A model generated the notes under the pieces. The model was not told the origin of the DNA, made no database searches, and worked only from the letters and a program-made list of their open reading frames with translations. A stretch of DNA of 64,000 nt from Chlorella sorokiniana. Taxonomy: Eukaryota; Chlorophyta; Trebouxiophyceae; Chlorellales; Chlorellaceae. The stretch covers positions 2,792,001 to 2,856,000 of the forward strand of contig CP084613.1 in the NCBI GenBank assembly GCA_025917655.1, written 5' to 3'. The position numbers were made by a program, and so were the translations under genes. This document shows, piece after piece, positions 4,937-37,086 of the stretch. The number at the start of each line of letters is the position of its first letter. The first letter of the stretch is position 1.

Positions 4937-5373
4937 AATCTGCGTACAGGCGAAGTTGAGGCATGGTTGAGGATTCCGACGTTCTTCCTGGCTTTCCACC
5001 CCTCGCCGCGCCTTGTTCCGGCCCCAATGAACCCCCTCTCTTCAGGGAAAATCTTCTTCTGGCGGCGCGACTCGCTTGGCATACCTAACACTGCAGGTGG
5101 GGCTCCTGGGTGCGCAAGGATGTGCCTGCACAGGGGGCGGCATCGCCCTAGCTGCACTCGATACCGTACATTTGCGAGCTTGCAGCGATACAAGTGTCTG
5201 TATAGATGTAACCATGTGCTGATCGCGGTTTTGACTGACGGCGCTCGACAAAACACCTGCTCAAAGCCAAGCGCCGGCTGCGGCGATACCGTGCTTGACA
5301 GCGGTGCTTTCTGTTCCTTGCTTAAATTTGCAGATATCTGGGCAGGGATCTGTGCGAGCCGCCCCCATACAAC

Positions 5374-8053
5374 ATGCGCTGGGCGCCCGGCATGGCGGCG
5401 GCCCTCCTGCTGGCCAGCCTGGCCTCCCATGCCAGCGCCCTGGGGCCTGTGTCCCCTGCAGGAACGCCTGACGTAGTCTTCAACGGGAAAGAGGGGCCAA
5501 AGGTGCTGATGGCCAAGGACGACGCAACGGCGGCCGTCACCCAGCAGCTCCTTGCCGCGCTCGCCCGCAGCGCTGAGGCATTCGTCAAGGGCACAGATGT
5601 ACCAGCGGGCCCGTCCATTGCCGCCGCAGCCCCCGCCAACGTGTCTGCCGCCACCGTAGCCTCCGTCATGGGCTCCATCATGGCTGCTTCTGTCTTCGAG
5701 GTTATTGCAAGCAGAACGCTGGGCGACCCAAAGTTCTACCCGTGAGACAGCAGCATCTTCCACATGCTTCTTGCTGCTTCAAGCCTGCTGGGCTTTCTGA
5801 AGGGCTCTGCTGCTATTAATCATTTCCCTGAACCACCACTTTGTGCATTCTTTCAGTTGAAACCGCACACACCCACCATCTTCACCAATCTAATCACGCA
5901 TCTCCCAACTGACCCTCCCTCCCTGTTGCTCTCTCAGCTACAACGACGGCACTGGCCGGGTTGCCCTGTATCGCTTCCCCAAACGTCGCGCAAAAGGCAC
6001 CTGCATCTTCGTCCACGGTTGCAAGCACGACCCCTACTCCTGGTTCTACAAAACTCGAGGGTGCCCCATGTGCACAGGTGAGCAGCGCCATGCGATGACG
6101 CCCGTTGAGCGGCATCAAGCAGCCTGCAGTTGCTTCCTCTGCTGTGCCACCGCCTCCTACCCGCTTGCCACATGCATTCCTCTGGATGCCTGCATGATAA
6201 ATTCCTCCTTTTCAACAGGTCTACCCGAGGAGGTGTCCCACACCAAGCAGTGCCTGGCTCGCGGCTACGCTGTGCTGGCCCTCATGTCCCTGGACCGCTC
6301 GTATCGTTTCCGTTGCTTTTCCTCCTCTGGGGGCCTGACAGAAGTGAGCCCGCCAACCGCCAGGCGCATCGTCTGCTGCATGGGAGGCTGGTGTTGCACA
6401 GCCACCGCATGTTGCAACCCACACACCCCTTCCGGGAACACACATTCCATTCCTTCCCCTTACCCCAACTCTTTCTGCATTTGCACATCATCCTTGCTTC
6501 ATGCCCTGCACCCTGACCCCCTGCCGTTCTCCCGCACCCCCAGATGATCAGCCATCTGCCGGGCGTTGGTGGATCGTTGGATGAAGACGTTCAAGCTTTC
6601 TGGCAAACCCAAGTACATGTTTGGCGTGTCATCGGGAGCCTCATTTGCCATCAAATTCCCCATGACGATGTGGGTGGACGGTGTTGTGAGCGGTGAGGGG
6701 TTTGCTGCCGTTTGACTGGTGGGTCTGGGAGTGCTACAGAAGGAGCGTGTCCTCTCGTAACTTGCTGTCATGTCCCTGGCTTAAGCCTGCTCCACACACC
6801 TTCACAACCCCTTCCCAGAGGTCAACATGCCGTGGGAGAAGGCCTGGGGCGCGACGGATGGTCGCGGGCGCCTGCGCGTACGCTTCCCGCCCACCGCCTA
6901 CTTCATGATGCAGCGCGATCTGCAGACCAAGCGCCAGATTGAGAAGGGTGTGCAGATCCTGCGCAGCAACGGCGTGCCTTCAGACTACGTTTATGTGAGT
7001 GCTTGCCTGCAGCCGTTGAGTGCTGCCCATGCCGGTGCTGGGCGGGGCTGTGCGAACACTGACCGGCACAGACATGCAGCACCCTTGCCTCAGCAGGCAG
7101 TCTGCCCCCTTCCACCCTTCTTCTGCGTGGCAGATCCCTGCCAGGCAAGTCACCAAGGACTGGCTGTCCATGCGTTCCATCTACATCACTCCAACCCAGT
7201 CACGCGCCATCTGGGCAGCCCTGATCAAGGCGCGCGTCATCGACCGCCAGGGCAACGTGCTGTACGATGTCAGGGTGGTGAGAGAAGGACACCTCTGCTG
7301 CCTGTCTAGCCTAGCCGCATCACAATGTATTGCAGAGTCGGGGACATGCAGCCGAGCCTGCAACATCCTCATGGTCTGTCAAGCAGTCCACTCCCCCTTG
7401 CTCTCCTTGCCTGTCCCTGTTCAGAACCGCGGATGGATCAAACTGCTGGCCAAGATCCTGCCCTGGCTCAAGCGCAGCGACCCGTACTACAACCTCATCT
7501 CCGACGAGTCGCAGATCTGGCAGGGTGGGTGGGGCAGCAGCTGGTTGGCGTGCAGCGCTCCGCCCCATGCAGCCTGCATGGCCATGCTTGCATCCGCACA
7601 GCCTGGCAGAGGGTGCGGCTGCCTGCCCCGGAGTGTCTGGTCGCTTGCGCCGCGCCTGGCTCCAGGCGTGCGCATGCCTCCCGCGCTCCCGCCCCACACA
7701 CCTGCACGCATGCGTGCCCCGCAGAGCTCAACCTCGCCTGGTCGTGGCACGAGATTGTGTCGGGTGAGCCCCTGTTGCCGGGGCAAGGCCTTGCATTGGT
7801 GGGCTTTGGCATGCTGAAGCACTGGCCCTGCCCATGTTGGCTGTCCCATGTGCACTGCAGCCGCCCTGCTCAAACCCTGTGCTCTTGTCGCCCCACAGAC
7901 CCTGTGCAAGCAGTTTTGGCCTGGCTGGAGACGGGCGGGCGCGCAAACCTGCAGTCCTTGGTGCGCCGCTACGATCATGGACAATTCATCTCCTGCCTCA
8001 CTGAGCATCGGGAGGGTTGTGGCAGGGGACGGCGCATGATGGCCCAGGAGTGA
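5374..8053 (+). CDS. Secreted alpha/beta-hydrolase-like protein, copy 1 of tandem pair
   Basis: Nine exons were read: 5374-5741, 5938-6077, 6219-about 6342, 6544-6692, 6819-6994, 7134-7274, 7425-7524, 7725-7763, 7899-8053. The N-terminus is a signal peptide (MAAALLLASLASHASALG). The conserved core has an HGC box (CIFVHGCKHDPYSWFYK) resembling a hydrolase oxyanion-hole HG motif, a CPMC pair followed by TGLPEEVSH, and a GVSSGAS serine-elbow-like GxSxG, so a serine hydrolase fold is plausible. The catalytic Asp/His were not assigned. Against copy 2 it lacks one base in the G5 run at 6329-6333 and another near 6558-6562; both break the frame in otherwise conserved sequence. It has two more introns than copy 2. 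The substrate is unknown; secretion to the wall or ER lumen is inferred from the signal peptide. Confidence 0.7.
7525..7724 (+). repeat. Intron nearly identical to an intron of the downstream paralogue
   Basis: This 200-nt GT-AG intron of copy 1 aligns end to end with 11214-11410 of copy 2, with four substitutions and two small indels (about 97% identity by eye). The other introns of the two genes show no such likeness. Confidence 0.9.
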
Positions 8054-9047
8054 ACCCCATGCTAGCATTTCAGCAAAGAACCGTGAGCATCACGCAAACA
8101 TTTCTCGCAGTTGGCCTTCCATTTCCTCCTGATAACTGCCTTGCTGCTGCATTACCATGCATGCATCTCATAACTGCAGTTGCACTGCACAGGACTGATT
8201 GAAACCTACCTCCCTGACAATAGGCAGACAAGGCACAACATCCACCATTTTCAATCGAGATTATACAGTTGCATGCAAGCGTTTTGCGATGTCCTTGCCT
8301 TTCGTCTCCGTCCTTTGCTTGACCCTCATCCCAAGCCCACATTTGAACTTTGTGGCCTCTATTGCACAGCATATACTACCCGTTGTTATTGAGACCATGG
8401 TAGATGGGGTTGAGAAGCTGCTGTTGCGGCTGCTAATGCGGGTGCTCGCGGCGGTTGGGTGGCAGATAAGCACCTGACGACCTGCATAGCCGCATAAGGT
8501 GGGTTGTGAGGTCGACAGTGTGCCGTGGACCACCATCCTCAAATGAATTCCCCCTTGGATGTCTCCCCAACAGGGCGTCCCACTGCTGCTCTGCAGCTAC
8601 TTGCGGCGGTGACGGCAACGCTGACAGCGGCACTCCCCGTGCCTCTGGACAAGGGAGACACAAGGAATTCATTGTGTTTCTCGGAAGCTTGCACGATTTT
8701 AAAATGAAATCCAGTTTGCTCAGAACGCCCCCGCTTGCGCCCTTCATGGAGGTGCCGCGTGCTGAGAACCTGTAGGTGGGACCTGTTCATCGACCGGCTA
8801 ACCCTTAGGGCAGAGTTGATCCGTATCAGTTATTCTCACGTCGCCGGTGAGTTTCCCAGTGCCTGCTCCCCACCCGACGCGGTGGACGGTGCGGCATGCG
8901 GATAGAGGGTTGGAACGCGCGATGGCATCCCATCACCATCGTGCAATGCAGGCAGCCACCATGGCAGCCTTGTCGTGCCTTTGTCGCAACAACTGCCTCC
9001 CCAGCCTGGGCTGACCTCAGGAAACGTTTTTCTACCCTCTAGGAGAC
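8054..9047. other. Intergenic region between tandem paralogues
   Basis: 994 bp hold the 3' UTR of copy 1 and the promoter of copy 2. The base composition is more AT-rich than the genes around 8080-8400. Several short open frames show no family resemblance or coding-like composition. No poly(A) TGTAA motif was seen. Confidence 0.5.
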
Positions 9048-11583
9048 ATGAAGGCCGGCCTTGCATTAATAAGCTTCGCAATCCAACTGTTACGTGCAGG
9101 AGGCCAGCGGACAGGCGCCATCGTCAACTCTCTTGGGCTGCGGTCGCGCTCGTAGCGCTGGCGGCTGCCTGCCCCTCATTGGCGACCGTGACCTTTGACG
9201 ACCCCAGGGGACCTGGCTTTGTGACAGCGTCGCCTGCAGAAACCGCATTCCTGGCCTCGTTCATCCCTGGCATCCTGGGTGCCTCGCAGATGGTGAACAA
9301 CAACCTGACGCAGGTGCCTGCCGCTGCAGCAGCAGCTGCAGCATCGGCCGCCCCGCCCCCTGTCCTCCCAGCCGGGACAGCCAGCAAGGCCCTGGGCAGC
9401 TACTTGGCGGCTGCTGTGGCACAGGCTGATGCCCTCAGCACTCTTGGGGACCCCAGTGTTTTCAAGTGAGCATGCACCATCACTTCTTTCTGGAACAAGC
9501 TGTGGCACTGATTCTGGGCCTTCGTCATCCTGCGCTGAGAACCCTTTCCCTTCCACCCCCAACCCCACCCCTTCCCTGCCTTCTTGCCATCCATCTACAA
9601 AGGTATCCTATGGACAATCGTGTGGCGTTGTACCGTCTACCACGCACCAAGGCAGTACGCGGCACTTGCATCTTCATTCACGGCTGCAAGCACGACCCTT
9701 ACTCTTGGTTCTATAAGAGCCGAAAGTGCCCGCTGTGCACAGGTGGGGCCACGCTTCACGCCTGGCGCTCCTGCCCAGCAGGCCCCTTTGTGGCTTGCCT
9801 CTCAGGGCCGCTCATCTTGCGGCGCATGCGGCCATCGCGCCAGCCAGGCTGGCAAACGTCGGTCGCCAGCCTCTGCCTGCAGGCCTGCCCGAGGAGGTGT
9901 CCCACTCCAAGCAGTGCCTGGCTCGCGGGTACGCTGTGCTGGCATTGATGAGCAAGAACCGCGAGTATCGCAACCGCTGCTTCGCGTCCTCTGGAGGGCC
10001 CGACAAAAGTGAGCCCTGCACCTGCCAGACTTTTCCTCTGCTGCTTGCGAGGCTGGTGCTACGGAACGACTTCGTGTCGCCACTCATCCAACCCGTTTCA
10101 GGAACACACTGACCTTCAATCATCTCTGAATCCTTCCTGTGCGAACTTGCAAAGGCATTGCTTACCAGCAGCCCCGCACCCTCGCCACCTCGCCTGCTCC
10201 CTTGCACCCGCAGACGATCAGGTCGACGCTGGTGTTGTTGTCAAAGCCTGGCTCAAGCGCTTTGGCCTGTCGCGCAAGCCCAAGTACATATTTGGCATCT
10301 CCTCGGGCGCCTCCTTCGCCATCAAATTCCCCAAGACGATGTACGTGGAGGGCGTCATCAGCGGTGAGCTGGCCGCGCGGCGTGTATGTGTGCGTTTATG
10401 TCTGGAGGAGCATTTGCAACAGGTGCACTCTAGGGCTGCCACCGTCAGGTTCCTTGTACAAAGCATCCCTCTCTGCCTGTCCGGCTTCTTTCTCCGCCAG
10501 AGGTCAACATGCCTTGGGAGAAGGCTTGGGGCATGACGGATGCCAACAGCCGCTTCGTGGTCAAGTTTCCGCCCACCGCTTTCTACGAGATGGCGCGCGA
10601 CCCGCAGACCTCGCAGCAGATTGCCGCCGCGCTGCGCATCTTCAAGAGGAACAACGTGCCAGCAGAGTCGGTGAAGGTGGGTGCTGCCGCCAGCGCCTTG
10701 GGTGCTTCCACCAGATGCCTTAACACATCCATGCAGGTCTGCTGTCTGCGCAGCATGCGTGTATTGATCCGCCGCAAGTGCTTTCCATCCCCGCGCGCCC
10801 CCACCCCCACCCCCACCCCCACCACACCACACACACACACACACACACCACCACCACCACCCCCACCACCACCACACACACACTCATACACACGCACTCG
10901 ACACCACACCAAGTAACACTCAGTGCTCACTCGCTCGCTTACCACTTTGACCCGCCGCAGGTGCCCATCCGCCCCGTGACCAAGCGGTTCCTCTCGGACC
11001 GCTCCATCTACATCTCCCCCGCGCAGTCGGTTGCCATCCGGAACGCGCTGAGGAGGATTGGCGTGATTGACGCGCAGGGTTTCATCAAGTTTGACCCGCG
11101 CAAGGACCAACCGCGCACACAGTGGACCGCCAAGCTGGCCAAGGTCCTGCCCTGGCTCAAGCGCACCTCGCCCTACTACAACCTGATCTCCGACGAGTCG
11201 CAGATCTGGCAGGGTGGGTGGGGCAGCAGCTGGTTGGCATGCAACGCTCCGCCCCATGCAGCCTGCATGGCCATGCTTGCATCCGCACGGCCTGGCAGGG
11301 TGCGGCTGCCTGCCCCGGAGTGTCTGGTCGCTTGCGTCGCGCCTGGCTCCAGGCGTGCGCATGCCTCCCGCGCTCCGCCCCACACACCTGCACGCATGCG
11401 TGCCCCGCAGAGCTCAACGTGGCCTACTCCCAGCACGAGATTGTGTCCGACTACGTCCGCCCCACGCTGATGTGGCTGGAGAGGGGCGGCAAGGGGACGA
11501 CCCTCAACTCCCTGGTCAAGCGCTTCTCATTGAACAACCGCATCACATGCCTCACCGAGAGGTACGAGGGCTGCCGCACGTAG
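9048..11583 (+). CDS. Secreted alpha/beta-hydrolase-like protein, copy 2 of tandem pair
   Basis: Seven exons: first exon ending 9465, then 9603-9742, 9883-10008, 10214-10363, 10501-10676, 10961-11213, 11411-11583. The signal-like segment AAVALVALAAACPSLA is followed by an Ala-rich N-terminal region, then the conserved core: CIFIHGCKHDPYSWFYK, CPLCTGLPEEVSH, FGISSGASFAIKFP, EVNMPWEKAWG and the C-terminal SDESQIWQ block. Intron positions and phases match copy 1 except for two introns present only in copy 1. The downstream frame is intact from 9117 on. The start is unresolved: the ATG at 9048 is in another frame from the signal-like segment, so either a short intron or a sequencing indel lies near 9050-9120. 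It is oriented in tandem with copy 1, 1 kb downstream, and clearly arose by duplication. Confidence 0.72.
10798..10893. repeat. C/A-rich simple repeat, (CCCCA)n/(CA)n/(CCA)n
   Basis: A compound low-complexity tract within the intron before the 10961 exon of paralogue copy 2. Confidence 0.9.
11214..11410 (+). repeat. Partner of the near-identical intron at 7525-7724
   Basis: This 197-nt intron lies at the equivalent position of copy 2. The exon just 5' of it (SPYYNLISDESQIWQ) is also very similar in DNA between copies, while the exon 3' of it diverges within about ten codons. That pattern fits a bounded conversion tract. Confidence 0.9.
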
Positions 11584-12208
11584 GCCACGCGCAGCGGCGG
11601 CCGCGAAACAGCCCATGCAAACACGCCCTCCAGCTGGCAGCAGTCGTCGAGCGCCGAGCTGCTGCAATGTGCATGTGTTCTTCCTTCCACCCGCTCTCTA
11701 CATCTGGTCAGTGAGGGCTGCCCACGGCGCCACGCGCCTGCGTCGCTCCTCACTTCATCGATAACCAGCGCCAGGCACCGTGGCTGTGTTGCTCTGCACC
11801 ATCAGGCCTCCCGACCATGCTGTGCCAGCCACACTCTGGCTTCAAGCAATCTCCTGATTGGTCATAATACCTTTCTTTCTGCCGTCTGTTCCTGCCCACT
11901 GGCCCATGTCCTGTGCTCTCCCTTTTGTCTCATTTCTCTCGATTTGTTGCAGATTCCACCAACCTATGCCTCCTGTGCAGCGTCCCAAAAGGACACGTGC
12001 CATCAGCATTCTGCCGCATGCAGGTGGCATGGATAGGTGTGTAAGGCTAGCTGCTGGAGGTTGGCAGGTGGCGGCAGGGGTGTCGTGCGAGCAAAAGGCC
12101 AGATGAGGGTTCACAAGGAAGCAAGGGAGGAAGCACCATCATCAGGCACTGCTGCAACACAACATGTGCGGCAGGAGCAGTCGCCTGCTGCCCGCTGCCG
12201 CACCGGTG
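11584..12208. other. Convergent intergenic region with TGTAA at 12040
   Basis: 625 bp between two convergent genes. TGTAA at 12040-12044 could be the poly(A) signal of hydrolase-like copy 2, though it lies about 456 nt past the stop. No other feature was seen. Confidence 0.4.
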
Positions 12209-32581: not shown

Positions 32582-35500
32582 CTATCCAGCGCGGGGCTCG
32601 GGGCGGCGGCCGCGCCGCGCCATCTGCGCCTGCGCCCCCGCCGACACGGCGGCCGCCAGCTGGCTGGGGTCCAGCGTCTGCAGCAGCCCCGCCGCCAGGT
32701 GCAGCTGCTGCAGCTGCTGGCGCAGCGCGTCCGCCTCAAAGGTGCCCAGCGCGTCGTCGCCGCCGTCGTCGAACAGCGCGTTGAAGGGCGCGTCGTCGTC
32801 GGCGGCGCCGTGGAGGAGGGGGCGCGGGCGGCGCGGAGCGGCCATGGCGTCGAGAGGCGCGCCGCCCGCTCCGCCGCCCCAAACTCGGCACCGCGGTAGG
32901 CGGCCAGGCGGCTGGGCCCAGCGCTGGCAGGTGGCGGCGGGTAGGCGGGCAGGAGTGCGGGGGTGCCGCCGGGCGCAGGCGATGCCCCGGGGGCTGGGGG
33001 CGCCGCCTGCCTGCCTGCCGGCGTGGCGTGGCGGCAGCAGGCTGCCGTGTGGGGTGCCGTGCTGCGATCCCGCGGGGGTGGACAGCTCGCTGCCCTCGCT
33101 GCCGCCGTCGCCGCCCTCGTAGGGCGGGGCCAGCGCGGCGGCGGCGCTCCAGTGAGAGGTGTGGGGGCGGGGCCGCGGGGCGGGGCCGTGAAGGAGGTGG
33201 GTGCCGAGGCGAAGGGCAGGCCGCTGGGCGTGTCGTACCGCGACTGCTGGCCCAGCCCCGGCGCGCCGCCCTGGGCCGCCAGCTGGGCGGGGAGGGGTAG
33301 CCCTGGCTGGGCGGCGGGGGCGGGTGGCGCTGCGCGGCGGCGGCGGCCGCGTGCTGCTGGCTGGCCCGCCCCACCAGCTTCACCTCCGCCAGCAGCGCCG
33401 CCTGCTGCGACTGCACCTGGTGCAGCAGCGCGTGCAGCTGGGGCCACACCTCGGCACGGAACTCCCGCACCCAGCCCTGCCCGTCCTGCAGCTCCGCCAG
33501 CTCGCCGCGCAGCAGGCCCTCCTGCCGCCGCAGCTCCGCAGCCAGCGCCGCCAGCGCCGCGTCCTCCCCCCGCCTGCACGCCTGCCGCGCTGCGCCCGCC
33601 CCGCCCTCGCCGCCCGCCTGCGCGCCGCCCTCGGCGGTGGCCACGCCGGCCCGGGCGGCGTGGCCGCCGCCGCCCGCCTGCCCGCCCGCCTGCCCGCCTG
33701 CCAGGCTCATGGAGTGGCGCTGGGCCGCGCTGTGCAGCACAGCGGCTGCGGCCGCCGCCGCCGCCGCCTCGTACTCCTCCAGCGAGTGCTGCGAGAAGAG
33801 GGGGTTGGTGGCCGGGGGGGCCTGGGCGCCCGCGGCGCCGCCGCCAACGGCCGCAGCGTGCTCCCTCAAGCCTTGCTGCTGGCCGGAGCTGAGCAGGCGG
33901 CGGTAGGCGTCGGCCGGGCCGCCCTCGGCGCCCGACTGCCCCGCAGCGCCGCCGAGGCCGGCATGCAGGTGCTGCTGGCCCGAGGCCAGCGCCGCTGCCG
34001 CCGCCAGCGCCGCTGCCTGCGCCTCCGCGGCGCCCTCGCCGTCGGCGCCGCCCCCAGGTGGGGGTACAGTGCCTGGCCGGCGGCGAGGGCTGCCGCAGCC
34101 ATGGCCGCCGCTGAGTGGTAGGCGGGGCCTGCGGGGCTGCCGCCGTCGGCGCCCAGCAGCAGGGCAGCAGCCTGGGGGTCGCCCTGCTGCGCCAGCGCGG
34201 CCCGCAGGTGCATCTCTGCGGCAGCCAGCTCCGCACTCGTGGCCGCCATCTCGGCATCCGTGAACACGTGCACCTGGGCAGCGCTGCCGCCGCCGCCGCC
34301 GCCCTGCCCGGGCTTGCTGGCGGCAGCGCCCAGCAGGCCCTGGCCCCGCGGGCCCGCAGCGCCGCCGCCGTCGCCGCTGCGCCGCCGCCGCCGTCGCTGT
34401 CGCCGTCGCTGTACTGCATGGTGAGGCGGCCGGGCGCAGCCGGCCCACGGGCCCCGCGCCGAGCTTGTCAGACAGGCCGTCGTAGGGCGCCACGCTGGCG
34501 CCCACCTGGCGCTGCCGACGGCGGTGCCGCCACACCAGCAGCAGCACGACTGCGGCAGCGGGGGCGCGGGGGCAGGGCATTAAAAGGGGTGTGTCATGGG
34601 GAACCCAAAGGCGCAGCAGTCCATGCCTGAGGCTGCGCACCGTGCCCGCCGCGGCCTGCCCAGCCATCCCCCTCCCCCACACAGCCGCCCAGCGCACCGA
34701 GCAGCAGGGCCAGGGCCCCTCCCGCCGCCCCCAGCACGAGCGCCAGCGGGAACTCCTTGGGCTGGGGCAGGGTGAAGGGGCTGCCGTTGAGCATCACCTC
34801 GGTCACGTCCACCTCCCCCACCCAATCCCCCGGCACCACGCTGCCCAGCTGCGCCAGCAGCGCGGCGGCCAGGGCTGCCGCCGCGGCGCCGTCCACGGCT
34901 GAGAACACGGCCGAGACGTGGAGGCCCGCTGGGGGCGCGTCGGCGGCCGCCAGGCGGCGCCGGCCAGCGGCGTCCTGGCCCAGCTGGGTGGCGGTGACGT
35001 TTGGGGCCTGCGAGGCACCAAACCGGCTGACGCACGCCTCCGCCAGGGTGGACGCAACCAGCTGCGGGCGCTGATGCCCGCCAGCAGCTGGCCCACGGGG
35101 CTGCTGGCCTGGAGCAGCAGCAGGTTGAAGGAGACGGTGGGCGGGGGCGGGGGCGGGGGCGGGGGTGGCGGGCTGGGTGGGGGGGGGGTGCCGCCGGCGG
35201 GGACGGGGACGAGGCGGGGGTGGGCGTGGCGAGGGGGCCTGGGGTGGGGGAGGGGGCGGCGCAGCACCAAAGGGATGAGTTGCAGGGTGGCGGGACGTGC
35301 TGCGGCGTTGCTGGGCCTCGCCTGAGCAGCGCAGCCTGAGCAGCGCAGCCTGAGCAGCACTCACCTGGGAGAGGGTGGCGGGGAGGGCGACGGTGGCGGG
35401 CTGGGAGGCGGCGGGGGCTTGGGGGAGGGCGTGGCGGTTTGGGTGGAGGCGGTGGTGGGCGCGGGGGCGGGGTGGGTTTGGCGGGATGGGGGGGTGGGCG

Positions 35501-37086
35501 GCAGGGGGCGAGGGTGGCGGGGAGGGCGGTGAGGGCGCCTGGCAGCAGATGGGCGCCAGGGACTCGTTCCACACCCCGCCCCACCGCACGCAGTCCTGCT
35601 GCAGCACCTCCAGCAGGTCGGCGTCGCCGCAGGTGGGGGGGGGGGCGGGGGATGGGCGCCGGCGGGGGGCGGGGGCAGGGGCGGGGAGGGGGTTGGGCGG
35701 GTGGGCTTGGGGGGTTGGCGGGGAGGGCGGGGGGGCGGGGGCGGGATGATGGCGGGGTTGATGCAGGACAGCTCGGGAAGTCTGGCGGCGCGGGCACCAT
35801 GCCGATCAGCCCGCAGTCAAACTGGCAGCAGTCGGGGGCGCGGGAGGGGTCCCACACCCCGCCCCAGTACTCGCAGTCCGCCTGCAGCTCGTCCGCGGGC
35901 TCGGGGCAGGAGGGGGAGGGGGCGGGCGATGGCGGGGGCCGGGGCGGAGGGGTGGGTGGCGGCGGCAGCGGGGGCTGGGGCGGGGCGGGGGAGGGGGGCA
36001 GCAGGGTGGCGGGGTCCACGCAGGTGCCCTCAGGGCCCGTCACCATGCCAGATGCCATGCATGGGTCAGGCGGAGGGGGCGGGCTGGGAGGAGCAGGAGG
36101 GGAGGGCGACGGAGGCAGGGGCGGGGGACGGCGGGGTTGGGCTGGGTGGAGGAGGCGAGGGGGACGGCGGGCGGGGGGGGCGGGGGCGGGGAGGGGGAGG
36201 GGGTGAGGGTGGCGGAGGCGGAGGGGAGGGAGGCGGGGGGCGGGGAGGGCGGGCGTGGCGGCGAGGGGGTGGGGAGGCGGCGACAGGGTGGCTGGGTCCA
36301 CACACACGCCGGTTGGGCCGGTGACCAGCCCAAAGTCAAGGCACACGTCCGGAGCGGGTGGAGGCGGGCTGGCAGGGCTTGGAGGGCTGGGGGAGGCGGC
36401 GGGGCTGGAGGGGGCTGGGGCTGGGAGGGGGCGGTGGGCTGGGCGGAGCCGGGCCGGGGGTGGGGACGGCGGCAGGGGCGCACCATGGCTGGGTGGAGGC
36501 AAGGGCGGCAGCGGCGGGTTGGGAGGGCGGGGCGGTGGGATGAGGGCTGGGTTGATGCAGGCGCCTTCGTAGCCTGGGTCTGGCACCATGCCGTAGGGGG
36601 CGCACCCGTCGCCCGGCTCGGGGCTGCCGGGCTGGGGCGGTGGCGCGGGAGGCGAGGGAGGGGGTGGTGGCCGCGCTGTCGTGTGCGACGGTGGCGGCGG
36701 AGACTTGTTGTACTCCTGGTGCAGGCGGCGTGCCTGGCCTCCCTCAACCTGCCATGAGCCGTGGGCCGGTTGGTCGGCGTACAGGGGCTCCACTCGCCGG
36801 CATGAGCCTCGCCCCGCCTCAGCTCCTCCGCCTGCTGGGGGCAACGGCAGTTGACGGCGCGCAGCTCAAACCCTGCCTCCGTCAGCACATTGGCCGAGGC
36901 ATTCGACTGCAGGGCAAGTGTCAAGGATGCAGGAAGCATTCTTTCCTGTCCCAGCTTTCTCACCTCTGTGCTGCGCAGCCTGCGCCGCTTGCGCTGCTTC
37001 ACGTGGGAGGCGGGTGAGCTTCCCTGCGCTGCCGCCGACGCAAGAAGCAGGGCCAAGCCCATCGCAATTCGCCCTTGGAGGCGCAT
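32582..37086 (-). CDS. Large proline-rich, cysteine-module, single-pass cell-surface protein
   Basis: Not matched to a named family. The start is the ATG at 37086-37084 with a signal peptide (RIAMGLALLLASAAAQG). Pro/Ser-rich linkers separate short Cys modules. Module A is GMVTGPEGTCVDPATLxPP-like, near 36530-36615, 36280-36352, 36000-36070 and, shifted in frame, 35744-35830. Module B is DCEYWGGVWDPSRAPDCCQ near 35820-35881 and DCVRWGGVWNESLAPICCQ near 35540-35600. A folded region follows, with ASTLAEACVSRFGASQAPN, an NVT site and GLHVSAVFSAVDGAAAA; it recalls SEA-like pre-membrane domains. One membrane span (FPLALVLGAAGGALALLL, then VVLLLVW across an intron) ends in a basic stop-transfer (RHRRRQRQ). 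The Ala/Gln-rich cytoplasmic tail ends near 32582 with LDPSQLAAAVSAG. Several frame breaks make exact exon limits uncertain. A wall-attached or sensing receptor-like role is inference. Confidence 0.6.
35140..35200. repeat. G-rich low-complexity tract encoding poly-Pro
   Basis: (GGGGGC)n-like DNA encodes a Pro-rich linker on the minus strand of the surface-protein gene. Reading-frame assignment around it is unreliable. Confidence 0.8.
35321..35360. repeat. 14-bp tandem repeat, just under three copies
   Basis: Two exact copies of CCTGAGCAGCGCAG (35321-35334, 35335-35348) and a partial third, directly beside the CTCACCTGGG donor context on the minus strand. It lies inside an intron of the surface-protein gene. 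Confidence 0.85.

Follow-up and report, generated by a model that had tools for sequence, protein, structure and literature searches.

In the tandem L and M opsin genes of primates, the silent sites of the exons have diverged further than the introns, within which most conversion tracts lie, and the homogenisation of introns by conversion is well known there (PMC3213168). The tandem paralogues analysed here, gene 1 (g1) and gene 2 (g2) of Chlorella sorokiniana, resemble the opsins in that an intron has very probably been converted between neighbouring copies. In contrast to the opsins, for which the same source gives a silent divergence of 6.1-6.4% and exons kept apart by selection, g1 and g2 are very old and a single intron appears to have been replaced; most of their introns are unalignable, unlike those of the much more alike opsin genes (PMC3213168). 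"Intron transfer" denotes an intron moved between paralogues by recombination, and the table of a review lists three unambiguous events (PMC3443670). The present case is similar in having an intron at the matching site of the sister gene, put there in all likelihood by recombination, and an intron stands at the homologous phase-1 site in whichever gene was the donor, since both g1 and g2 carry it. In that review, however, intron transfer is defined by an intron-free recipient site (PMC3443670), whereas the position of the shared intron (intron 7) is old in the family. As in the Solanaceae cox1 gene (PMC3192709), the intron would have moved together with its exon flanks; the cox1 intron, however, is an endonuclease-bearing group I homing intron of the mitochondrion, whereas the intron shared by g1 and g2 is nuclear and spliceosomal, and no third copy of it turned up. 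Among the matches listed for conversion with introns and paralogues, for intron gain with conversion, for Chlorella with gene conversion and for Chironomus globin introns, the g1/g2 case appeared in no title or opening of an abstract. Gene conversion is a known process, of which g1/g2 is very probably a new, unusually clean instance. Introner elements are near-identical introns in different genes, present in many copies through insertion at new sites. Intron 7 of g1 and g2 shares with them the near-identity in different genes; unlike introners, which occur in many copies at unrelated sites, it was found in two copies, at the same old site, by a search that passes over very common words.

The window, that is, the whole 64,000-nucleotide stretch of DNA that was analysed (C3:2792001-2856000 of a 38.8-Mb, 15-contig genome; GC 0.678), holds g1 and g2 as tandem paralogues on the same strand, both members of a multigene family to which seven contigs gave matches (C1, C2, C3, C6, C9, C10 and C12). 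Their models, summarized in Table 1, were built by hand from homology and splice consensus alone, without transcripts, and the 5' limit of g2 at 9100 is arbitrary, the start codon not having been located in the model. Neither Pfam, at E up to 1, nor the PDB sequences, at E up to 10, contained a match to the family, and no relative emerged from a single scan of viral contigs. The motif GISSGASFA and the hydrophobic N-terminus of g1 have the look of what we take to be a secreted alpha/beta-hydrolase-like protein. In the paralogue on C10, a long repetitive P/A/S-rich tail resembling a cell-wall protein was apparent by eye (L023 5727-6040), and a proline-rich stretch also continues in the member in L031, again by eye.

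Table 1. Positions of the two gene models, of the introns and patches discussed, and of similar patches in other tandem pairs (window positions unless a locus is named).
Feature	Position	Strand	Description
Gene 1 (g1)	5374..8053	+	nine exons; hand model from homology and GT-AG sites
g1 exons 1-5	5374-5741, 5938-6077, 6219-6343, 6544-6692, 6819-6994	+	
g1 exons 6-9	7134-7277, 7425-7524, 7725-7763, 7899-8053	+	
Gene 2 (g2)	~9100..11583	+	seven exons; hand model from homology and GT-AG sites
g2 exons 1-4	9100-9465, 9603-9742, 9883-10008, 10214-10363	+	
g2 exons 5-7	10501-10676, 10961-11213, 11411-11583	+	
g1 intron 7	7525..7724	+	200 nt, phase 1, GC 0.73
g2 intron 7	11214..11410	+	197 nt, phase 1, GC 0.72
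Putative conversion tract, g1	7497..7732	+	28 nt of exon 7, whole intron 7 (200 nt), 8 nt of exon 8
Putative conversion tract, g2	11186..11418	+	same limits as the g1 tract; intron of 197 nt
Probable older patch, g1	6218..6437	+	from the 5' half of exon 3 (identity 0.93, 60 columns) to within the 5' half of intron 3 (identity 0.68-0.77)
Probable older patch, g2	9882..10103	+	counterpart of the g1 patch at 6218..6437
g1 intron 6	7278..7424	+	without g2 counterpart; present in C10 and L031 (read)
g1 intron 8	7764..7898	+	without g2 counterpart; in C10 at about the same place
L024 pair (C1:394k/399k)	L024 3357-3511 and 8208-8362		155 nt, 1 mismatch
L027 pair (C3:1649k)	L027 3502-3632 and 5637-5767		131 nt, 2 mismatches

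Several peculiarities of the two genes were recorded alongside. Exons 3 and 4 of g1 could not be joined in frame via a standard acceptor (6344-6587): a TGA lies at 6545-6547 in the conserved frame, and use of the following AG that keeps the phase of the exon 3 donor would place the exon start at 6587 and skip about 14 codons. g1 may be a pseudogene, or the source of a shortened product. Intron 5 of g2 contains a CA/CCA-rich tandem array (10802-10907), and none was reported in intron 5 of g1 at a score of at least 120. When the window was compared with itself at E 1e-6, the one match on the same strand outside g1/g2 was a local DNA repeat at 35366-36024, with about 66% identity over 424 nt.

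The two copies of intron 7, about 3.7 kb apart, start with GT (7525 and 11214) and end with AG (7724 and 11410), which bears out the sequence-only reading in treating both as real introns, and for the g1 copy the splice position finds support in the C10 paralogue, whose exon runs through the site without a break. Their near-identity was likewise as that reading had described it: a global alignment gave 193 identical bases out of 197 aligned, with 4 substitutions and two small indels. All four substitutions (7550, 7555, 7600 and 7650) are transitions, and the indels, one of 2 nt (7608-7609) and one of 1 nt (7688), lie in an AG pair and a C run; such a combination of transitions and run-length indels is the pattern expected of young neutral change after recent copying. 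The tract delimited from the mismatch list, a fragment scan and the pairwise alignment extends over 236 nt in g1 and 233 nt in g2 at about 98% identity, within otherwise strongly diverged sequence. When the 2428 aligned g1/g2 columns were scanned with a mismatch penalty of 9, the best fragment was 7485-7732 (245 columns, 5 mismatches), whose score of 195, compared with the 29 that was the most reached when the columns were permuted 2000 times, marked it as a high-identity tract beyond chance in diverged paralogues. With a penalty of 5 the best fragment was 7445-7732 (score 219, permutation maximum 29), and with a penalty of 3 it was 7445-7761 (242 against 35); the permutation null is coarse, mixing exon with intron and conserved with unconserved columns, and the margin is large.

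The right edge of the tract is sharp, while the left edge varies with its definition, the position 7497 adopted here being the first base past the nearest exon mismatch. The similarity thus defined takes in the 3' end of the preceding exon, as had been proposed from the sequence. The accompanying statement that it fades within about ten codons of the next exon also agreed with the alignment, in which near-identity stops 8 bases into that exon and similarity of the ordinary exon kind, non-synonymous changes included, extends as far as 7761. Farther upstream, in the block 7446-7475, all 8 third positions compared are identical, and this block may reflect the same event, an older one or codon bias. 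Intron 7 is the most GC-rich intron of both genes (others, 0.51-0.71), a composition that would fit GC-biased conversion.

The coding exons of the pair have diverged far in protein, as the sequence-only reading had held: 207 of 329 residues are identical (63%), a difference of about 37%. In a tree of six proteins, two of which (L029 and L028a) are partial and were pieced together from tblastn matches, g1 and g2 appeared as sisters with support of 89/94 and the C10 paralogue formed the next branch. Based on this protein identity and on the position of C10 next to the sister branch, the duplication was judged to be old. Equal silent identity along the whole genes, named beforehand as the sign of a simple recent duplicate, was not what emerged, since only 89 of 152 third positions were identical when shared amino acids of exons 2-9 outside all patches were counted. 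Inside the tract, by contrast, silent sites are identical: 11 of its 11 informative exonic third positions matched, whereas 116 of 184 did so in the rest of exons 2-9 (Fisher p = 0.008), a small sample of just 11 codons in which codon bias could raise the result. Exon 1 was omitted from these third-position counts, as it aligns poorly. A fragment test confined to exons, with codons permuted 3000 times, ranked 7485-7732 first at a penalty of 9 (p = 0.004). At penalties of 5 and 3 the first-ranked stretches were 6069-6279 (p = 0.0003) and 5996-6279 (none of the 3000 permutations as good), both of which end at 6279 in exon 3.

The remaining introns were said to be unrelated, and this stood for introns 1, 2, 4 and 5 and failed for intron 3. 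In local alignments with 60 shuffles each, the z scores of introns 1, 2, 4 and 5 were 2.1, -0.3, -1.0 and 0.6, whereas intron 3 reached 17 and intron 7 reached 49; global alignments with 30 shuffles each gave about 2.8, 0.9, 1.0 and 2.4 for the former four, about 9.7 for intron 3 and about 29 for intron 7. A faint residual similarity in introns 1 and 5 is possible on these scores. Sliding identity together with the z of 17 for intron 3 defined the exon 3/intron 3 patch listed in Table 1, which is probably an older, decayed conversion patch. As for the two introns that g1 has and g2 lacks, intron 6 corresponds in L029 to a gap between exon matches whose splice sites were unread. The boundary of intron 8 in C10 is about one codon off that of g1, and its placement suggests that intron 8 is likely homologous between the two.

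To place intron 7 in the history of the family, its site was compared among the paralogues. The nearest dispersed paralogue, C10, lacks the intron. As judged by eye, however, L031 (C2:4439k) has a GT-AG phase-1 intron and L029 (C2:3923k) a phase-1 intron with a GC donor at the very codon of intron 7, and because codon and phase are the same, the position was considered old, C10 having most likely lost its intron. Intron 4b, which C10 and L031 carry, occurs in neither g1 nor g2, a joint absence that agrees with their sisterhood. The search of the whole genome (38.8 Mb, 15 contigs) with intron 7 and its flanks, which passes over very common words, found no third copy at E up to 10. At the intron 7 site, the alignment score of L031 was 17.7 against a shuffle mean of 10.4 (sd 1.8, about z 4), that of L029 was 16.3 against 11.6, and those of two stretches of L028 were 15.8 against 12.3 and 12.4 against 12.6; the L031 stretch alone is a delimited intron, the other three being fixed upstream stretches of 200-300 nt. 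Given that introns compared across different sites scored as high as z 4.4, the resemblance of L031 to intron 7 counts as weak. The lack of a clear counterpart in the paralogues, together with the absence from C10, argues against a conserved intronic function.

Three further candidate origins of the shared intron were set aside. A new gain of the intron in the pair, suspected from its absence in C10, is out in view of the introns at the same codon and phase in L031 and L029. A transposable or introner origin was considered on account of an imperfect inverted repeat seen by eye near the ends of intron 7, yet there is no third copy in the genome as searched. Coding constraint was considered as well: the upstream reading frame stays open through the intron, as do other frames in this GC-rich DNA, and through the indels of 2 and 1 nt the two copies fall out of frame with each other.

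Patches of the same kind were found in two other tandem pairs of the family (L024 and L027 in Table 1). Both have diverged sequence on either side, both cover the exon matching exon 3 of g1/g2, and their sharp edges speak for conversion. Over an 18-codon piece of that exon, the five tandem pairs were 0.93, 0.98, 0.76, 0.96 and 0.80 identical, compared with a mean of 0.65 and a maximum of 0.87 in 100 dispersed pairs, so that three of the five exceeded every dispersed pair and two fell within the dispersed range. At third positions of the piece the counts were 67 of 80 for tandem and 718 of 1130 for dispersed pairs. The comparison comprised 15 members; it omitted L026, where a match was seen, L029, the plus-strand member of L031, whose exon is split, and the minus-strand member of L030/L031, and the C9 segment finishes in a different frame. 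Part of the excess could be due to tandem pairs being younger. Self-comparison revealed no such patch in L030 or L031, and weaker matches only in L025 (75%, 142 nt) and L028 (86%, 63 nt). From these patterns, conversion seems to recur in the family.

Taken together, a recent ectopic (interlocus) gene conversion between g1 and g2, which copied one intron with short exon flanks, is very probably the explanation of the tract. We infer that the neighbouring gene served as the template for mending a break or gap at the non-homologous intron, with pairing in the conserved exons on both sides; pairing at the exon ends is taken as most likely because the older introns offered little homology. As the old introns were barely homologous, if at all, replacement would have taken in the entire intron and no exon bases beyond the nearest ones, with either g1 or g2 as the donor, after which each copy would have gathered neutral changes. 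The divergence of about 2% indicates an event that is young when set against the duplication. Conversion probably took place earlier at exon 3/intron 3 of g1/g2 as well, and at the matching exon of the two tandem pairs described above. The case is drawn from one genome of one strain.

What speaks against this explanation is that the limits of the tract lie near those of the intron, a situation that selection on the intron could mimic. A functional intronic element (a small RNA, a splicing control or an RNA structure) under strong selection in both copies would account for identity over the whole intron with limits near the splice sites, and the high GC of intron 7, the predicted fold of the g2 intron (z -2.3, with 5 of 200 shuffles as good) and the score of the L031 intron, about z 4 above its own shuffles, could be read in its favour. 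The fold of the g1 intron, however, was no better than shuffles (z -0.9), the three other paralogue stretches scored 12.4-16.3 against nulls of 11.6-12.6, C10 lacks the intron altogether, and a conserved reading frame is incompatible with indels of 2 and 1 nt. Rfam offered no match either, with 0 at E up to 1 in 5000-12000 and 0 at gathering score in the window, and the silent identity of the exon flanks is not predicted by selection on the intron. Such an element is accordingly regarded as improbable. Of the two causes named in the sequence-only reading, conversion or a selected element, conversion was therefore favoured by the sharp tract, the 11 of 11 silent sites, the young mutation pattern and the want of a clear counterpart in the paralogue stretches compared, and it drew further support from the like patches in two other tandem pairs. 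The exon flanks also weigh on transposition at the RNA level, in which a spliced intron would have been reverse-spliced into the mRNA of the other gene and then fixed through reverse transcription and recombination: this would explain in one event both the loss of introns 6 and 8 from g2 and the identical intron, but would not bring along exon flanks, which are identical at silent sites (11/11), and we hold it to be more improbable still. The chance of a recent duplication of the whole pair, or of an assembly artefact, is negligible; the high identity itself, and nothing more, recommends it, whereas the proteins are 63% identical, the silent sites are far apart, and the copies sit in diverged flanks and differ in six places.

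A special case of conversion between g1 and g2 is intron loss followed by re-acquisition. Here a cDNA made from the mRNA of g2 would have recombined with the gene and erased introns 6, 7 and 8 together, after which exon-anchored conversion from g1 would have restored intron 7. The introns missing from g2 are exactly those flanking intron 7, and both are found in g1 and in the outgroup C10, intron 6 also in L031 and, as a gap, in L029; moreover, one contiguous loss plus one conversion makes fewer events than two losses plus a conversion, and the exon flanks of intron 7 look co-converted. Introns are nevertheless lost freely in this family, as C10 without intron 7 and g1 and g2 without intron 4b demonstrate. 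Intron 8, whose boundary is unlike in g1 and C10, may not be one ancestral intron, and the sole, indirect pointer to an earlier intron-free site in g2 is the absence of introns 6 and 8, the intron 7 site itself being old. Because two independent losses would be ordinary too, this sequence of events was judged unlikely, though a good deal less so than the foregoing alternatives.

With conversion between g1 and g2 as the preferred explanation, the locus provides a clean example from nature of how tandem genes of old standing can convert each other over a short tract, in which pairing must have used short conserved exon stretches. Were the loss and regain of intron 7 true, it would amount to an observed instance in which exon-anchored gene conversion undid the loss of an intron, with a direct bearing on intron loss and regain in gene families: the presence of introns in tandem families would be resettable, and the age of an intron position would say little on the age of the intron residing there. 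The patches in two further tandem pairs make tract length, exon anchoring and recurrence amenable to study in one genome.
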